Origin: Actinoplanes lobatus
Lineage (GTDB): Bacteria > Actinomycetota > Actinomycetes > Mycobacteriales > Micromonosporaceae
NCBI RefSeq assembly: GCF_014205215.1
Contig: NZ_JACHNC010000001.1
Coordinates: 10,288,501-10,352,500 of the forward strand
Length of the DNA stretch: 64,000 bases
Reading direction: 5' to 3'
The notes beneath the pieces are model-generated. The model did not search any database. It saw only the letters and a list, made by a program, of their open reading frames with translations, and was not told the origin of the DNA. The position numbers and the translations under genes were made by a program. Within the stretch, counting starts at the first letter, position 1, and each line of letters opens with the position of its first letter. Below, piece after piece: positions 1 through 45,049 of this stretch.

Positions 1-464
1 AACAGTTCGCCCAGTCCGGGCGCCAGCGCCGCGGCGTGGTCACCGGTTTCGAGTTCCCATCCGGGTGGGAGTCCCTGCTGCCAGTAGACGACGGCGCCGT
101 CGCCTTCGGTGTCCACATAGAATCGGTCGAGGTATTCGAATCCGCCGAACGGCAGGTACCGCAGCTTTGCCGATCCGGCCAGCTCGGTCTCGTGGTCGAT
201 CCATCCCCACAGGTCGTGATAGCCGTCGTGGGAACCGAACACCTCGCTGAACGAGACGGGCGCGTCCAGGTCGTAGTCGAGTCGGCCGCCGAATGCGCTC
301 CGCCACAGTGCGACCAGTTCCACCGGAATGGTTCCGGAACACCGGGCCGCCACGGCCGCGAGGGTTTCGGCGTCGATCGGCGGTTCCGCTTCGGTGATGA
401 TCCGGTTCGCGAAAACCACGATCCCGGCTTCGGCGGCGGTTTCTTGGTCTCTTTCGCTCAGCAC
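1..464 (-). CDS. SMI1/KNR4 (SUKH)-like protein, 3' end outside window
   Basis: The reading frame starts at a GTG at 464, preceded by GAGAGAG about 8 nt upstream, and stays open for 154 codons to the left edge, so the C-terminus is missing. The translation has SUKH hallmarks: IPVELVALWRSAFGG near residue 47 (the usual IP..L..LY...NGG start), then LRYLPFGGFEYLDRFYVDT and a VVYWQQGLPPGWEL strand. SUKH proteins often act as immunity proteins against polymorphic toxins, but many are of unknown role. No toxin gene is visible here. The gene downstream on the same strand lies outside the window. The family call is from motif recognition only. Confidence 0.72.
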   Translation of the reverse strand, partial: MLSERDQETAAEAGIVVFANRIITEAEPPIDAETLAAVAARCSGTIPVELVALWRSAFGGRLDYDLDAPVSFSEVFGSHDGYHDLWGWIDHETELAGSAKLRYLPFGGFEYLDRFYVDTEGDGAVVYWQQGLPPGWELETGDHAAALAPGLGEL

Positions 465-35365: not shown

Positions 35366-36099
35366 TCGCCGACCGCCTTGAACAGGGCGGCGACCTCCGC
35401 CTGCGACAGGTGGCGGAACCCGCCGGGCCGCAGGTCGCCGAGGCGGATCGGGCCCACCGCCGTCCGGATGAGCCGGGTGACCGGGTGCCCCACGGCGTCC
35501 ATCATCCGGCGGACGATGTGCTTGCGGCCCTCGTGCAGCACGATCTCCACCTGGGCGGTCTTGCCGATCGCGTCGACCAGCCGGAAGGAGTCCACCTTCG
35601 CCGGGCCGTCCTCCAGCTCGATGCCCTTCTGGAGGGCCCGGCCCACGGTGCGCGGCAGCGGCCCGACCACCTCGGCCAGGTACGTCTTGTTGATCTCGTA
35701 CGACGGGTGCATCAGCTTGTGCGCCAGCCCGCCGTCGTTGGTGAACAGCAGCAGCCCCTCGGACTCGGCGTCGAGCCGGCCCACGTGGAACAGCCGCTGC
35801 TCGAAGTTGGCGCCGAGGAAGTCGGCCAGCTCGGTGCGGCCCTTCTCGTCGTCGAGGCTGGAGACGACGCCGCGCGGCTTGTTCAGCGCCACGTAGACGA
35901 GCTTGGTGTTGGTGATCACCCGCTGCCCGTCGACGTGGATCTCCGCCGTGGCGGGGTCGACCTTGTCGCCGAGCTTGGCGACCCGGCCGTTGACGGTCAC
36001 GCGCCGCCGGAAGATCAGGTCTTCGCAGGCGCGCCGGGATCCAACACCGGCCGCAGCCAGGACTTTCTGGAGGCGTTCGGCGGTGTCAGCCTGAGGCAT
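35362..36099 (-). CDS. rluB: 23S rRNA pseudouridine synthase, RluB type
   Basis: 245 residues from the ATG at 36099; a longer frame adds only six residues. The S4 RNA-binding domain is at the start (RLQKVLAAAGVGSRRACEDLI, VNGRVAKLGDKV). The catalytic domain has VALNKPRGVVSSLDD, LFHVGRLDAESEGLLLFTND (catalytic Asp in GRLD) and VLHEGRKHIVRRMMDAVGHP. It isomerises a uridine in 23S rRNA. It begins inside the 3' end of scpB (14-bp overlap), giving the usual actinobacterial order scpA-scpB-rluB. Confidence 0.95.
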   Translation of the reverse strand: MPQADTAERLQKVLAAAGVGSRRACEDLIFRRRVTVNGRVAKLGDKVDPATAEIHVDGQRVITNTKLVYVALNKPRGVVSSLDDEKGRTELADFLGANFEQRLFHVGRLDAESEGLLLFTNDGGLAHKLMHPSYEINKTYLAEVVGPLPRTVGRALQKGIELEDGPAKVDSFRLVDAIGKTAQVEIVLHEGRKHIVRRMMDAVGHPVTRLIRTAVGPIRLGDLRPGGFRHLSQAEVAALFKAVGD

Positions 36100-37156
36100 C
36101 GAGCACTTCTTCCACATCGTCGGGCAGGAATGGGGCGAGCGGCGGCAGCTGGTCGACCGAGTTGAGGCCGAGCTTCTCGAGGAACAGCGACGTCGTCCGG
36201 TACAGGTATGCCCCGGTTTCCGGTTCGGTGCCGCACTCCTCGATCAGGCCGCGAGTGACCAGCGTACGCATCACCCCGTCACAGTTCACACCGCGGATGG
36301 CCGAGATGCGCGATCGGGTCACCGGCTGTTTGTAGGCGACTACGGCGAGTGTCTCCAGGGCGGCCTGGGTGAGCCGGACCGATTGGCCGTCGAGGACGAA
36401 CCGTTCGACGTACTGCGCGTACTCCGGGCGGGTGTAGAGACGCCACCCGCCGGCCGCCCGCCGCAGGTCGATGCCGTGCCCGGCCGCGGTGTAGCGCGCC
36501 GAGACGTCCTCCAGGACGCGGGCGATCCGCTCCACCGGCTGCTCCAGGACCTGCGCCAACTGCAACTCGCCCACCGGCTCGTCGACCACCAGCATGATCG
36601 ATTCGAGGGCCGCCGCCAGCTCTGCGTCGTCCATCACAACAGCGGGGGTACGGGTCGGAGCGGGCGGTTCCTCCCGCCGTGGCCGCGCCTGGGCGGGAAC
36701 CGCGGCCCTGGGTTCCGGCCGCGAAGGCGCCGCCTCGGGCTCGGGTTCCGAAGGCCCGGATTCCGAAAGCTCGGGTTCCGAAGACTCGGGCTCGGATTCC
36801 GAGAGCTCCGCCTCGGGCTGCGGAAGCTCCGGCTCAGCCAAAGGCTCGGGCTCCGTCTCGGTGGAAAGCTCGGCCTCCGCCTCGGCGGAAAACTCGGGCT
36901 CCGCCTCAGCCGAAAGCTCGGCCTCCGCCTCAGCCGAAAGCTCGGCCTCCGCCTCAGCGGGAAGCTCGGCCTCCGCCTCAGCCGAAAGCTCGGCCTCCGC
37001 CTCAGCGGGAAGCTCGGGCTCCGCCGAAGGCGAAGGCGCAAGCTCGGACTCGGCCGCGTCCTGGTACTCCCGGTCCGGCTCCCGGCGCCGCTCCCACGGC
37101 GGCACCCACGCGGCCGCCTGCGCCGCCAGCGACTCGGGACGCTCCTCGCTGCTCAC
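36086..37156 (-). CDS. scpB: Segregation and condensation protein B with acidic repeat extension
   Basis: 356 residues, nearly twice the usual ScpB length. The conserved double winged-helix core starts near residue 172 (DDAELAAALESIMLVVDEPV, GWRLYTRPEYAQYVERFVLD, LTQAALETLAVVAYKQPVTR, IRGVNCDGVMRTLVTRGLIE). The first 170 residues are a Glu/Ser/Pro-rich tail. Residues 45-100 are about seven copies of an 8-residue AEAEAELS/P unit, followed by SEPE-type repeats. ScpB works with ScpA and SMC in chromosome compaction. The tail is probably disordered and strongly acidic. The start overlaps the scpA stop by 4 bp. Confidence 0.94.
   Translation of the reverse strand: MSSEERPESLAAQAAAWVPPWERRREPDREYQDAAESELAPSPSAEPELPAEAEAELSAEAEAELPAEAEAELSAEAEAELSAEAEPEFSAEAEAELSTETEPEPLAEPELPQPEAELSESEPESSEPELSESGPSEPEPEAAPSRPEPRAAVPAQARPRREEPPAPTRTPAVVMDDAELAAALESIMLVVDEPVGELQLAQVLEQPVERIARVLEDVSARYTAAGHGIDLRRAAGGWRLYTRPEYAQYVERFVLDGQSVRLTQAALETLAVVAYKQPVTRSRISAIRGVNCDGVMRTLVTRGLIEECGTEPETGAYLYRTTSLFLEKLGLNSVDQLPPLAPFLPDDVEEVLDASG
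36857..37024 (-). repeat. 24-bp coding repeat in scpB
   Basis: About seven imperfect copies of a 24-bp unit encoding AEAEAEL(S/P). Copies differ at synonymous sites and at the last Ser/Pro codon, as expected from expansion by slippage followed by drift. Confidence 0.85.
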
Positions 37157-38758: not shown

Positions 38759-39001
38759 TCACTTCTTCTTGGACTTCTTGTCCTTCTTGGACTTCTTCTC
38801 GGCCTTGGCGGGAGCGGCCTCCACGGGAGCCTCCTCGACGGGAGCGGCCTCCACGGGAGCCTCCTCGACGGGGGCGGCCTCGACGACGGCCGCCTTCTCC
38901 TTCTTGGCCTTCTTGACCTTGGCCTCGACGACCGGCGCCTCGACAACCGGCGCGGCCTCGACCACTACCGCCTTCTTGGCCTTCTCTTTGGTCTTACCCA
39001 C
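38759..39001 (-). CDS. Small Lys/Ala-rich basic protein
   Basis: 80 residues from the GTG at 39001, chosen because AAAGGAGG lies 5 nt upstream; the ATG at 39019 has no such site. Composition is almost only Lys, Ala, Val, Glu and Pro: VGKTKEKAKKAVVVEAAPVV opens it, APVEEAPVEA repeats follow in the middle, and the C-terminus is KAEKKSKKDKKSKKK. It resembles the Lys/Ala/Pro tails of histone H1-like and HU-fusion proteins of actinobacteria, so binding to DNA or RNA is plausible, but there is no folded domain to prove it. Own terminator, monocistronic. Confidence 0.75.
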   Translation of the reverse strand: MGKTKEKAKKAVVVEAAPVVEAPVVEAKVKKAKKEKAAVVEAAPVEEAPVEAAPVEEAPVEAAPAKAEKKSKKDKKSKKK

Positions 39002-39193
39002 GTCGGCCTCCTTTCGCATGACTGCTTCACGCGACCCGGCCGGCGCGCGTGTGCACGCGACTGTAGTGGATCTTGGGATATCTGTGGTTGGTGTGATGGA
39101 AGTGAAATGTTCACCATCCGGCTAACCGGAAAGCCCGCCGGACGCCGGACCAAAATCGACTCCCCGTGACACATCCCGACGTAGGGTGGGCCG

Positions 39194-39488: not shown

Positions 39489-40964
39489 CTACGACGGTTC
39501 GGGCCGGCTGAACAGGATCGAGCACTCCACGGCACGCCGCCAGTTCGCGTATTCGCCGGCACGCCGGGCCGCGTCCATCCGGGGCCGCCACCGGCCGGCC
39601 ATGTGCCGGTTGGCGTGCAGGTCCCGCAGATCCGACCAGTAGCCGACGGCCAGCCCGGCCGCATAGGCGGCGCCCAGCGACACCGTCTCGGCGACCATCG
39701 GCCGCAGCACCGGGACCTCCAGGAAGTCGGCGACGATCTGCATGAGCAGGTTGTCCGCGGTCATGCCACCGTCCACGTTGAGCGCGGTCAGCGCCAGGCC
39801 GGAGTCGGCGTTCATGGCGTCGACCACGTCGCGGGTCTGCCAGCCGGTCGCCTCCAGCACCGCACGGGCCAGGTGCGCCTTCGTGATGTACGAGGTCAGC
39901 CCCACGATGACGCCCCGCGCCTCGCTCTGCCAGTAGGGCGCGAACAGGCCGGAGAACGCCGGCACGATGTAGCAGCCGCCGTTGTCACGGACCGTCCCGG
40001 CCAGGGTCTCGATCTCCGAGGCGGTGCCGATCAGGCCCAGGTTGTCACGGACCCACTGGACCAGCGACCCGGCGATCGCGATCGATCCCTCCAGCGCGAA
40101 GACCGGCTTCTCGGCGCCGATCCGGTAGCCGACCGTGGTGATCAGCCCATGACTCGACCGGACCTGTTTCGTACCGGTGTTCATCAGCAGGAATCCGCCG
40201 GTGCCGTAGGTGCACTTGGCCTCGCCCGGCTCGAAACACGTCTGCCCGAACAGTGCGGCCTGCTGGTCGCCGATGGCGGCGGCGATCGGCACTCCGGGCA
40301 GGACGGCTTCGGCGGTGCCGTAGACCTCGGCCGATGATCGGATCTCGGGAAGCATCGCCCGCGGGATCCGGAACAGCCGGAGCAGTTCGTCGTCCCAATC
40401 GAGATCGTTCAAATTCATCAGCATGGTACGGCTGGCGTTGGTCACGTCGGTGAGGTGCCGTCCGCCGGTCAGGTTCCAGATCAGCCACGAGTCGACGGTC
40501 CCGAACAGCACCTCACCGCGTTCGGCGCGCTCCCGCAGCCCGGGGGTGTGCTCCAGCAGCCACTGGATCTTCGTGGCCGAGAAGTAGGTGGCCGGCGGCA
40601 ACCCGGTCCGGCTCGTCACGAGATCCGCGTCGATGTCGCCGGTGGCCGCGCGGGTGTCCTGCCAGACGATCGCCGGCGCCACCGGCACCCCGGTCGCCCG
40701 GTCCCACAGCACCGTCGTCTCCCGCTGGTTGGCGATCCCGATGGCCGCCACCTCGGATGGAGCGACGCCGGCCTCCCGCAACGCCCGCTCGATCAGCCGC
40801 CGCACGTCCCGCCAGATCCGGGCCGCGTCGTGCTCCACCCAGCCGGGCCGCGGATACGACTGCGAATGCTCGGCCCGCACCACCGACACGACGGTCGCCC
40901 GCCGGTCGAACAGGATGCACCGCGTCGACGTCGTCCCCTGATCCACCGCCAGCACGTAGCTCAT
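39489..40964 (-). CDS. glpK: Glycerol kinase, copy 1
   Basis: 491 residues, full length, with GGGAGGGGGCGGAG before the ATG. FGGY-family motifs: [86 protein letters not shown] and [14 protein letters not shown]. It phosphorylates glycerol to sn-glycerol-3-phosphate. It is 34 bp downstream of the GylR-like gene on the same strand, so probably one operon. Residues 120-241 are nearly identical at DNA level to the other glpK while both ends are clearly diverged, a gene conversion signature. Confidence 0.95.
40242..40607 (-). repeat. glpK conversion tract, inverted copy 1
   Basis: 366 bp matching 42208-42573 in reverse orientation with four mismatches counted by eye, against only about half identical residues in the flanking parts of the proteins. 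Confidence 0.9.
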
Positions 40965-40998
40965 GACTCCGCCCCCTCCCGGTCGCCCGCACGCCCGC

Positions 40999-41769
40999 TC
41001 ATGACCCGGACACGTCCCGCGAGATCGACCGGGCGGCCGCCACCACGTGCTCGACCAGGCCGGGCCGGGCCTGCCGCCGCGTGTCGGTGAGCCGCTCCAC
41101 CGGCCCGGCGATCCCGACCGCGCCGACGACCAGCCCGCCCGAGGTGCGCACCGGCGCGGCGATCGCGGCCAGGCCCGGCCGCCACTCCTCCACCGAGAGG
41201 CCCCAGCCCCGGGCGCGGGTCTCGGCGAGTGCCCGGGCGAGGGCTTTCCGGTCGGTCACCGTCCTTCGGGTGTACGCGTCCAGCCCACCCGCCACGGCGG
41301 CCTCGGTGGCCGTCGCGTCGTGGGCGAGCAGCACCTGACCGAGCGCCGTCGCATGGGCGGGCAGCCGCACCCCGGTGTCGAGTGACTGGGCCGAGTCGTC
41401 GGGCCGGAACACGTGGTGCACCACGACCACCTCACCGTCGCGCAGCACGCCGAGCCGAACCTCCTCGCCGCTGCGGGCGGCCAGCGCGTCCGCCCAGTTG
41501 AGGGCGCGCCCGCGCAGTTCGTTGGCGTCGATCCCGGTGGAGCCCAGTTCGAGCAGCCCGCGGCCGAGCCGGTACCGGGCGGTCCGCGGGTCCTGCTCGA
41601 CGAACCCGACGTGCTCCAGGGTCCGCAGGATGCTGTGTGCCGTGGATTTCGGCAGGCCGAGCGCGTCCGCGATCTCCTTGACGCGCAGCCGGTCCTCCCC
41701 CGCCGCGAGCAGGCGCAACACGGCCGAGGACCGCTCGATGGACTGGATCATGCCGGGCACGTGCGACAT
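40999..41769 (-). CDS. gylR: IclR-family regulator of glycerol genes (GylR-like)
   Basis: 256 residues from the ATG at 41769, or 250 from the ATG at 41751; neither has a good ribosome site. N-terminal winged helix [18 protein letters not shown] and [20 protein letters not shown], then the IclR effector domain ([73 protein letters not shown]). In Streptomyces the GylR regulator of this family controls the glycerol operon. Here it lies between two glpK genes, one downstream and one divergent with glpD, and a perfect palindrome covers its start. Confidence 0.88.
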
Positions 41770-41777
41770 TGTCGCAC
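41761..41777. promoter_or_regulatory. Candidate GylR operator overlapping the regulator start
   Basis: GTGCGACATTGTCGCAC, a perfect 8-bp inverted repeat around one base. It overlaps the first codons of the regulator gene and lies 65 bp before the divergent glpK2, well placed to control both directions. Confidence 0.68.
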
Positions 41778-41841
41778 GAGGGCCGTTGCCCCGCCCCGCT
41801 GTGCTCCCTAACGTCCGCGTCGTCGAGGACGGGAGGCACTT

Positions 41842-43320
41842 GTGGCGCACTACATCGGCGCGCTCGATCAGGGCACCACCAGCACGCGGTTCATGATCTT
41901 CGACCGGGCCGGTCGTGAGATCGGCCGCCACCAGCTGGAACACCGGCAGATCCAGCCACGCTCCGGCTGGGTCGAACACGATCCGGCGGAGATCTGGGAG
42001 AACACCCTCAAGTGCATCGAGGGGGCGCTCGCCGGCGCCGGGCTGACCCCGGCCGACCTGGCCGCCATCGGGATCACCAACCAGCGGGAGACCGCGGTGC
42101 TGTGGGACCGGGCGACCGGCACGGCGGTGGCTCCCGCGATCGTGTGGCAGGACACCCGTACCGATTATCTGGTCTCCGCTCTCGATCCTGACCTGATCCG
42201 GGAGCGCACCGGGTTACCGCCGGCCACCTACTTCTCGGCCACGAAGATCCAGTGGCTGCTGGAGCACACCCCCGGCCTGCGGGAGCGCGCCGAACGCGGT
42301 GAGGTGCTGTTCGGGACCGTCGACTCGTGGCTGATCTGGAACCTGACCGGCGGACGGCACCTCACCGACGTGACCAACGCCAGCCGTACCATGCTGATGA
42401 ATTTGAACGATCTCGATTGGGACGACGAACTGCTCCGGCTGTTCCGGATCCCACGGGCGATGCTCCCCGAGATCCGATCATCGGCCGAGGTCTACGGCAC
42501 CGCCGAAGCCGTCCTGCCCGGAGTGCCGATCGCCGCCGCCATCGGCGACCAGCAGGCCGCACTGTTCGGGCAGGCCTGTTTCGAACCGGGCGAGGCCAAG
42601 TGCACCTACGGCACCGGCGGATTCCTGCTCATGAACACCGGCACCACACCGGTCCGGTCCAGCCACGGCCTGATCACCACGGTCGGCTACCGCTTCGGCG
42701 CCGAGAAGCCGGTCTTCGCACTGGAAGGCTCGATCGCGGCGTGCGGATCCGCCATCCAGTGGCTGCGCGACCAGCTCGGCGTCCTGGACAGCGCCGCCGA
42801 CAGCGAAACCCTCGCCCAACAGGTCGACGACAGCGCCGGCGTCTGCTTCGTCCCGGCGTTCTCCGGCCTGTTCGCGCCCTACTGGCGGCCGGACGCGCGG
42901 GCCGCCATCGTCGGGCTGTCCCGCTTCCACACCGCCGCCCACATCACCCGGGCCGCGCTGGAGGCCGTCTGCTACCAGACCCGCGACGTGGTCGAGGCGA
43001 TGGCCCAGGACTCCGGCACCGTCCTCGACTGCCTCCAGGTCGACGGCGGCGTCACCGCCAACGCGCTCTGCATGCAGTTGCAGGCCGACATCCTCGGCGT
43101 ACCGGTCAGCCGCCCGGTGGTCGCCGAGACCACCGCCCTCGGCGCCGCCTACGCGGCCGGGCTCGCGGTCGGCTTCTGGACCTCCCTCGACGAGCTGCGC
43201 GCCAACCGCCACGAGGACCGGCGCTGGCAGCCGTCCTGGTCCGCGGCCCGGCGCACCGAAGGCATCACCCGCTGGCGAGCGGCCATCGACCGCACCCTCG
43301 ACTGGGTCAGCGTCGGCTGA
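41842..43320 (+). CDS. glpK: Glycerol kinase, copy 2
   Basis: 492 residues, GTG start with GGGAGG 5 nt upstream. Motifs as for copy 1: [84 protein letters not shown]. It is followed after 22 bp by glpD, so this copy is the one placed with the dehydrogenase, and it is divergent from the GylR-like gene. The N- and C-terminal thirds differ widely from copy 1, but residues 123-244 are almost the same. Two kinases may differ in expression or affinity; no glpF transporter gene is in the window. Confidence 0.95.
42208..42573 (+). repeat. glpK conversion tract, inverted copy 2
   Basis: Partner of 40242-40607. Differences are at 42216, 42276, 42453 and 42465. The longest identical runs are 42277-42452 (176 bp) and 42466-42573 (108 bp). 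After 42573 mismatches become frequent. Confidence 0.9.
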
Positions 43321-43342: not shown

Positions 43343-45049
43343 ATGAAAACCGGAGTGATCTCGCCCCAGGCCCGTGCCAAGGCCCTTGAAGTCATGTCGT
43401 CCGGCGACGAACTGGACGTGCTGGTCGTCGGCGCCGGAGTGGTCGGGGCCGGCTCGGCCCTGGACGCCGCCACCCGTGGCCTGTCCGTCGGCCTCCTGGA
43501 AGCCCGCGACTTCGCCAGCGGCACCTCCAGCCGGTCCAGCAAGCTCATCCACGGCGGCCTGCGCTACCTGGAGATGCTCGACTTCAGCCTGGTCCGGGAG
43601 GCACTGCGGGAACGCGGCCTGCTGATCCAGAAACTCGCCCCGCACCTGGTCCGCCCGGTGCCGTTCCTCTACCCGCTGCAACGCCGGGCGTGGGAGCGCC
43701 TCTACGTCGGCGCCGGCGTCGCCCTCTACGACATCCTGGCCCTCTCCGGCGGCGGCGCGGGCGTGCCCGTGCACCGGCACCTGAGCCGGGTCGAGGCGCT
43801 CAAGGCGTTCCCGTCGCTGCGCCCGGAGACGCTGGTCGGCGCGATCCGCTACTACGACGCGCAGGTCGACGACGCCCGGCACACCATGTTCCTGGTCCGC
43901 ACGGCGGCCGCGCACGGGGCGCACGTGGCGTCGCGTACCGAGGTGGTCGGCTTCCTGCGGGAGGGCCGCCGGGTCGTCGGCGTCCGGGCCCGCGACCTGG
44001 AGACCGGCGCCGAGTTCGAGATCCGCGCCCGCACGGTGATCAACGCGACCGGTGTGTGGACCGGCGACAGCCAGGCCCTGCTCACCGGTGAACGCGGCGA
44101 ATTCAAGATCACCGCGAGCAAGGGCATCCACCTGGTGGTGCCGCGCGACCGGATCGCCGGCCGCACCGGCATGATTCTGCGTACGGCGACGAGCGTGCTG
44201 TTCGTGATCCCGTGGGACCGGCACTGGATCATCGGCACCACCGACACCAAGTGGAACCTCGACAAGTCCGACCCGGCGGCGTCCGGCCAGGACGTCGACT
44301 ACCTGCTCGACGAGGTCAACAAGGCCCTCGCCACGCCACTGACCAGGGACGATGTGCAGGGTGTCTACGCCGGCCTGCGCCCACTGCTGTCGGCCGAGGC
44401 GGCCAGCACCGCCAAACTGTCCCGCGAGCACGCGGTCGGCAACCCGGTCCCCGGGCTGATCGTGGTCGCCGGCGGCAAGTACACGACGTACCGGGTGATG
44501 GCCAAGGACGCGGTCGACGCCGCCGCCCGCGACCTCGCCACCCGCGTGCCGGCGTCCTGCACCGACCAGGTGCCGCTGCTCGGCGCCGACGGCTACCGCG
44601 CCGCCTGGAACCGGCGCGCCGCCCTGGCCCGCGCCCACGGCCTGCACGTCACCCGGGTGGAGAACCTGCTCCGCCGCTACGGCACCCTGATCGACGAGGT
44701 GCTCACCCTCATCGAGGACGACCCGGCCCTCGGCCTCCCGCTGGACGGCGCACCCGGCCACCTGCGTGCCGAGATCGTCTACGCGGCCAGCCACGAGGGC
44801 GCCCGCCACCTCGACGACGTACTGGCACGGCGTACCCGGATCGCTTTCGAAACCCCCGACCGGGGCGTCGCCGCATCCCGCGCGGCCGCCGCCCTGATCG
44901 CGCCGGTCCTGGGCTGGTCGCAGGAGGAGACGGACCGCGAGGCCGCCACCTACGAATCCCACGTGATCGCCGAACTGGCCGCCCAGTCCCAGCCCGACGA
45001 CGAATCCGCCGACGCCACCCTCCGCGGCACGGCCCTCACCCCGGCCTGA
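43343..45049 (+). CDS. glpD: Glycerol-3-phosphate dehydrogenase (FAD-dependent)
   Basis: 568 residues. FAD dinucleotide-binding VLVVGAGVVGAGSALDAATR, then FASGTSSRSSKLIHGGLRYLE, AIRYYDAQVDDARHTMFLVR, TVINATGVWT, IPWDRHWIIGTTDT, GVYAGLRPLL and IVVAGGKYTTYRVMAKDAVD, with the C-terminal helical domain. It oxidises glycerol-3-phosphate to dihydroxyacetone phosphate and passes electrons to quinone at the membrane. In an operon with glpK2, 22 bp upstream; together they channel glycerol into glycolysis. Confidence 0.97.
   Translation: MKTGVISPQARAKALEVMSSGDELDVLVVGAGVVGAGSALDAATRGLSVGLLEARDFASGTSSRSSKLIHGGLRYLEMLDFSLVREALRERGLLIQKLAPHLVRPVPFLYPLQRRAWERLYVGAGVALYDILALSGGGAGVPVHRHLSRVEALKAFPSLRPETLVGAIRYYDAQVDDARHTMFLVRTAAAHGAHVASRTEVVGFLREGRRVVGVRARDLETGAEFEIRARTVINATGVWTGDSQALLTGERGEFKITASKGIHLVVPRDRIAGRTGMILRTATSVLFVIPWDRHWIIGTTDTKWNLDKSDPAASGQDVDYLLDEVNKALATPLTRDDVQGVYAGLRPLLSAEAASTAKLSREHAVGNPVPGLIVVAGGKYTTYRVMAKDAVDAAARDLATRVPASCTDQVPLLGADGYRAAWNRRAALARAHGLHVTRVENLLRRYGTLIDEVLTLIEDDPALGLPLDGAPGHLRAEIVYAASHEGARHLDDVLARRTRIAFETPDRGVAASRAAAALIAPVLGWSQEETDREAATYESHVIAELAAQSQPDDESADATLRGTALTPA

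Follow-up and report, generated by a model that had tools for sequence, protein, structure and literature searches.

Recurrent, segment-limited gene conversion between two divergent glycerol kinase genes of Actinoplanes, as read from genome comparison

Recurrent concerted evolution of duplicated bacterial genes has been surveyed in 682 species, and the two tables of that survey hold 26 such genes, including tuf, amoCAB, psbA and nuoL, with glpK not among them.(PMC6053082) As that survey describes them, the copies are alike over nearly their full length, gene conversion is the cause, and the pattern recurs in at least five species.(PMC6053082) The two glycerol kinase genes considered here, K1 and K2, resemble these cases in occupying conserved places, in being closer to their own-genome partner than to their orthologs, in doing so in at least five species, and in the probable involvement of gene conversion. 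They differ in being homogenized only at about residues 76-284 of 492, while their ends have long diverged, so that likeness over the full length is not found.

A second comparison is offered by tufA and tufB of Salmonella, where, as here, two chromosomal paralogs undergo non-reciprocal exchange in tracts bounded by the ends of homology.(PMC5485169) The tuf genes are, however, nearly identical throughout, which K1 and K2 are not, and Salmonella possesses a MutS-type mismatch repair that shortens the tracts,(PMC5485169) whereas the Actinoplanes genome studied here possesses NucS and gave no match to MutS1. The gene cluster itself has been described: gylR and a second glpK upstream of glpFKD are reported in most Actinoplanes genomes.(PMC9732521) Our locus shares this gene make-up, but glpF, which belongs to the published cluster, would not fit into the 72 bp between the regulator gene and K1, and the passages that describe the cluster make no mention of gene conversion.(PMC9732521)

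Among the titles and abstract openings listed by our searches on conversion in glycerol kinase, on concerted, partial or ectopic conversion in bacteria and on Actinoplanes glpK, whose scope left out most subscription journals, no earlier report of the present case was found. Within the limits of that literature, it is new that recurrent conversion should have stayed for so long within the middle of two enzymes that have diverged elsewhere, while another pair of the genus does not convert. Recurrent concerted evolution is already known; its confinement to a segment is the unusual part.

The paired kinases and their shared tract

The window, by which we mean the whole stretch of 64,000 nucleotides analyzed, comes from Actinoplanes lobatus, the genome of which comprises 10.4 Mb in 2 contigs. 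The locus reads K2 (39489-40964, minus strand, 491 amino acids), an IclR-family regulator (40999-41769, minus strand), K1 (41842-43320, plus strand, 492 amino acids, GTG start) and, directly after K1, a glpD-like gene for an FAD glycerol-3-phosphate dehydrogenase (43343-45049, plus strand). K2 and K1 score 688.8 and 716 bits against TIGR01311 (glycerol_kin, cut-off 590.35), K1 also matching the solved glycerol kinase 2d4w with 604 bits; both are thereby assigned to GlpK by a curated model, and activity on glycerol is predicted for them. The regulator, "GylR-like" by its place only, matches NCBIfam IclR-type models below their cut-offs, and its reading frame is open to 41979, with a probable start at 41769; the best NCBIfam match of the glpD-like gene is PRK12266 (331.2 bits, below the cut-off of 360). 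The two kinase genes contain inverted arms of 813 nt each, 87% alike and separated by 1594 nt. Two repetitive stretches lie nearby: nine overlapping repeat copies with a period of 24 nt at 36779-37080, inside a minus-strand reading frame (36086-37156) and encoding a run rich in Ala, Glu, Ser and Leu, and a minus-strand reading frame of 86 amino acids at 38759-39019, rich in Lys, Ala, Val and Glu, with repeats spaced 15 nt.

A sequence-only reading of this DNA had drawn attention to two 366-bp tracts, one in K2 (40242-40607, minus strand) and one in K1 (42208-42573, plus strand), as the product of recent local conversion after long divergence. Codon alignment of both genes confirms that these tracts differ at just four sites (40599/42216, 40539/42276, 40362/42453 and 40350/42465), each silent and at a third codon position, and that the lengths given for the identical runs, 176 and 108 bases, are correct. 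The longer run exceeds the maximum of 51 obtained from 300 codon shuffles. Third positions of the two genes agree at 118/122 within the tract, at 34/74 in the N-terminal flank and at 118/202 in the C-terminal flank, and when the K1 tract is compared with K1 and K2 of the remaining 29 genomes that have two copies the best match reaches 92/122. The sequences nearest to the tract are K1 of G007, K1 of G055 and K2 of G025, a mixed set that points to neither copy as the donor. The two copies are sisters with support of 0.99 in a tree of the tract and 0.98 in a tree of residues 76-285, and the tract is one of the fresher tracts of the genus, the most recently homogenized part of both genes.

The sharp fall in identity said to mark both edges is present at the 5′ edge. 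On the 3′ side identity declines in steps, to 85-92% and then to approximately 62-72% only near 40090/42730, and the conversion zone is therefore wider than the tract. Sliding trees and fixed differences place this wider conversion-prone zone, with approximate edges, at 40119-40739 in K2 (minus strand) and 42067-42693 in K1 (plus strand), corresponding to about residues 76-284 of K1. That the tract could be an artifact of assembly collapse is unlikely, because the copies are not identical, the assembly consists of just 2 contigs, and other assemblies display the same pattern, including single-contig ones such as G022, where 609 identical bases are found (among the matches listed).

GC-biased conversion was considered and set aside, as across alignment blocks GC3 is not clearly higher in the middle than in the ends: 93.6, 94.2, 95.0 and 92.8% in the middle blocks of K1 against 94.6, 95.0 and 94.6% in its end blocks, and 94.3, 92.0, 89.1 and 88.9% against 93.0, 93.8 and 92.3% for K2. 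A search of plasmid DNA returned 414 records with glpK-like matches; in 6 of these records the best place had 80-90% identity, and none covered 80% of the query.

Exchange across the genus

A close K1 was found at E <= 1e-240 in 30 of 67 genomes of the genus, that of the window included, the other 37 having no K1 of this locus (locus 1) at that threshold. Together with A. rectilineatus, found among the matches listed, this gives 31 loci, of which 30 hold two copies; A. sandaracinus, where the regulator, K1 and glpD are present and K2 is absent, is excluded from all pair counts, and the sequences number 61 in total (31 K1 and 30 K2). Early comparisons of identity and GC3 cover 25 pairs and later analyses 30. 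The genome of the window also carries a second divergent glpK pair (locus 2, contig C1 at 4801643-4806335), arranged around an IclR gene and accompanied by glpD; it has the K1 and K2 classes in common with locus 1 and is without sign of conversion. Control material consists of 11 further kinase pairs from Actinoplanes: 8 cluster as locus 2, and the remaining 3 (G030, G041b and G037) fall elsewhere in the flank tree; the 8 genomes of the locus-2 control represent part of the locus-2 pairs of the genus.

In 90-bp windows, own-genome identity of K1 and K2 is approximately 47-82% in the ends and higher in the middle, where some genomes reach 100%; the rise is weak in others, such as G059, and edges and freshness vary between genomes. 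The longest identical runs are 609 bases in G022, 165 in G052, 155 in G007, 127 in G048 and 122 in G039, with 347 in G049 in a separate alignment (266 under different alignment and gap handling). For 22 of the 30 pairs, none of 300 codon shuffles reaches the longest run observed, which does not hold for the other 8. Since conserved motifs alone may lengthen such runs, the other kinase pairs form a better control than shuffles, and among these 1 of 11 exceeds its shuffles, with a run of 38 bases. No identical run is longer than 23 bases in any N-terminal flank or 34 in any C-terminal flank, against a median of 60.5 in the core.

Trees of the N-terminal and C-terminal flanks, each of 61 sequences, separate K1 from K2 with support of 1.0 and contain no own-genome sister pairs. 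Trees of the middle lack this split and contain 7 own-genome sister pairs for residues 76-285 and 10 for the 366-bp tract. When 150-bp trees are slid along the 30 pairs, a single change of K1/K2 label is needed in codon windows 1-50, 26-75 and 51-100 and again from 276 to 475, while 10-20 changes are needed in windows 76-125 through 226-275, and window 251-300 needs 7. Random label swaps within genomes give means of 21-26 changes, above the 7-20 observed, so that the K1/K2 signal of the middle is much weakened rather than fully erased. The 11 control pairs need one change in every window, against 3-9 in the middle windows of 11 locus-1 pairs.

The same boundary is apparent in the proteins. Of 63 fixed residue differences between K1 and K2 at locus 1, 62 lie in the ends and 1 at 76-290, with none between residues 73 and 285 among the 61 sequences. 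Locus 2 has 63 fixed differences within residues 74-284 alone, where locus-1 pairs drawn at random, 8 at a time in 200 sets, give a mean of 0.5. At K1 residues of about 122-190, mean identity between genomes is 80.6% for K1-K2, on a par with the 81.4% for K1-K1 and 80.7% for K2-K2 of orthologs, and it is 86.7% for own pairs (25 pairs). Own partners are mutually nearest among the 61 sequences in 19 of 30 genomes, in each of these for at least one middle window of 90 bp, in none of the flank windows, and in none of the 11 other kinase pairs; copies of one genome are thus closer than orthologs in more than five species. Compared with locus 2, the middle that both genes share resembles K1 at about residues 166-210 and K2 at about 211-270, which suggests exchange in both directions, although this mosaic rests on short stretches and protein trees of the half-cores yield no clean clades.

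These comparisons demonstrate, at the level of sequence, that exchange is recurrent and confined to this zone, that the loci examined hold no fixed inversions, and that the other kinase pairs tested are free of it; conversion between the two middles is probably two-way. The sequence-only reading was right about long divergence followed by local conversion, as trees of tract and flanks, orthologs and the paralogous control all testify. Where it fell short was in treating this as a single recent event. The freshness of the window tract and the close sisterhood of its two copies are what one conversion in this genome alone would leave behind; own-pair windows with differing edges in 19 genomes, this one included, and 7-20 label changes inside the zone leave that explanation almost no credence.

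Purifying selection on an active-site middle, keeping the copies alike with no recombination, would agree with the placing of the glycerol-site residues, which we take to be R83, E84, W103, Y135, D245 and F270 in E. coli numbering: all fall within the exchanged middle and are invariant in the 31 K1 and 30 K2. As a sufficient cause it is nevertheless very improbable. The likeness extends to silent sites, where the window pair far surpasses any match with the other 29 genomes, the own partner rather than the ortholog is so often nearest, and locus-2 pairs, expected to be under the same constraint, differ by their 63 fixed residues. Equal conservation of this segment among all glpK genes, which the sequence-only reading had named as its own refutation, is not found, orthologs differing at silent sites and locus 2 in its residues. 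Contradicted as the only force, purifying selection may still help to retain conversions.

How exchange may be confined

Gene order and orientation are identical in all 30 two-copy Actinoplanes loci, and in each of the 31 loci glpD comes after K1. As the paralogs are syntenic and their flanks split into K1 and K2, they are not independent duplications. In G038 approximately 6.8 kb separate K1 from the regulator gene (L057, 4700-11470), with reading frames that, named by eye, are hydrolase-, ABC transporter- and two-component-like. It had been proposed that crossing-over in the tract could invert the GylR-like gene, which might then act as a reversible switch, and the geometry of the arms would permit this. 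Inversion would, however, yield hybrids of K2 N-terminus with K1 C-terminus and the converse, and none of the 30 assembled two-copy loci is reversed or has mismatched N- and C-terminal types. One orientation is present in 30/30 assemblies, where an invertible switch would present both, and we regard a switch as having a very slim chance of being correct. With order and orientation constant and terminal types always matching, only non-crossover products are seen.

The account that we consider highly probable is that K1 and K2 represent two ancient glycerol kinase classes forming an interrupted inverted repeat around the GylR-like gene, between which homologous recombination, resolved without crossing-over, would repeatedly copy stretches of tens to approximately 600 bp from one middle (about residues 76-284) to the other, probably both ways. 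If conversion requires near-identity, the middle would be self-sustaining, as conversion keeps likeness and likeness permits conversion, while the ends, at approximately 47-82% identity, would lie out of its reach. Recombination is rarely initiated where long identical runs are lacking, and initiation in the flanks would be rare, since no identical run there exceeds 34 bp; NucS-type repair limits recombination of dissimilar sequences in a different way. Selection would hold the ends apart because class-specific residues that both loci conserve are located in them, and would also purge crossovers because these would join the wrong ends and part glpD from its promoter.

Whether the identity threshold or selection on the flanks is the leading force may be argued either way, both being compatible with these sequence data. 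A view in which selection dominates, favoring exchange of the middle through joint optimization of glycerol binding and discarding edge-crossing hybrids as useless, with the threshold secondary, has a low but appreciable probability. In its favor, zone edges are much alike across the genus, and the 43 class-specific residues common to locus 1 and locus 2 are all located in the flanks. One of these positions, K1 residue 407, is Asn in 31 K1 and 8 locus-2 K1, and its K2 counterpart is Asp in 30 K2 and 8 locus-2 K2; it aligns with E. coli Asn415, presumably an adenine contact, and this class difference may reflect different nucleotide handling. K1 also lacks the residues aligned to E. coli 234-236, which we take to be part of the fructose-bisphosphate site, and K2 of the window has the same sequence there. 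Against a leading role for selection, the short identical runs of the flanks might by themselves bar conversion, and likeness of the middles is not required, because clade A barely converts and locus 2 is viable with different middles. Selection to keep both copies functional or alike, also put forward in the sequence-only reading, is likewise not needed, and is weakened by the near-stop of conversion in clade A.

Under the account favored above, a lineage whose middle drifts apart would leave exchange for good. Clade A, of seven species (G004, G009, G010, G036, G038, G051 and G059), seems to be leaving, and locus 2 may already have left. Tentatively, and with some doubt, we would go further and regard the genus as holding a bistable, segment-limited exchange in its homogenized (locus 1), departing (clade A) and fully separated (locus 2) states, with a shared, evolving substrate-binding middle and class-specific ends kept through many speciations. 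If this holds, the identity-threshold theory of escape from gene conversion would become directly measurable in nature. Across 30 species the middle of these two genes has a history separate from that of their ends, and a kinase pair of the same genus that does not convert serves as control; together they provide a natural series for testing when paralogs escape homogenization; full-length glpK trees of this group should be read with caution, as they combine two histories.

Conversion is not equally active everywhere, because in 5 of 30 genomes the own partner is nearest for neither copy in any window, and 8 of 30 have a longest run that lies within the range of the shuffles. In clade A any middle window needs just 1-2 label changes, so conversion has nearly stopped there since the origin of the clade. 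A locus with the same gene set occurs in a second genus of this family (G125, L161), counted separately as its own-partner windows had no congener for comparison; there too the middle is raised, with an identical run of 65 bases.
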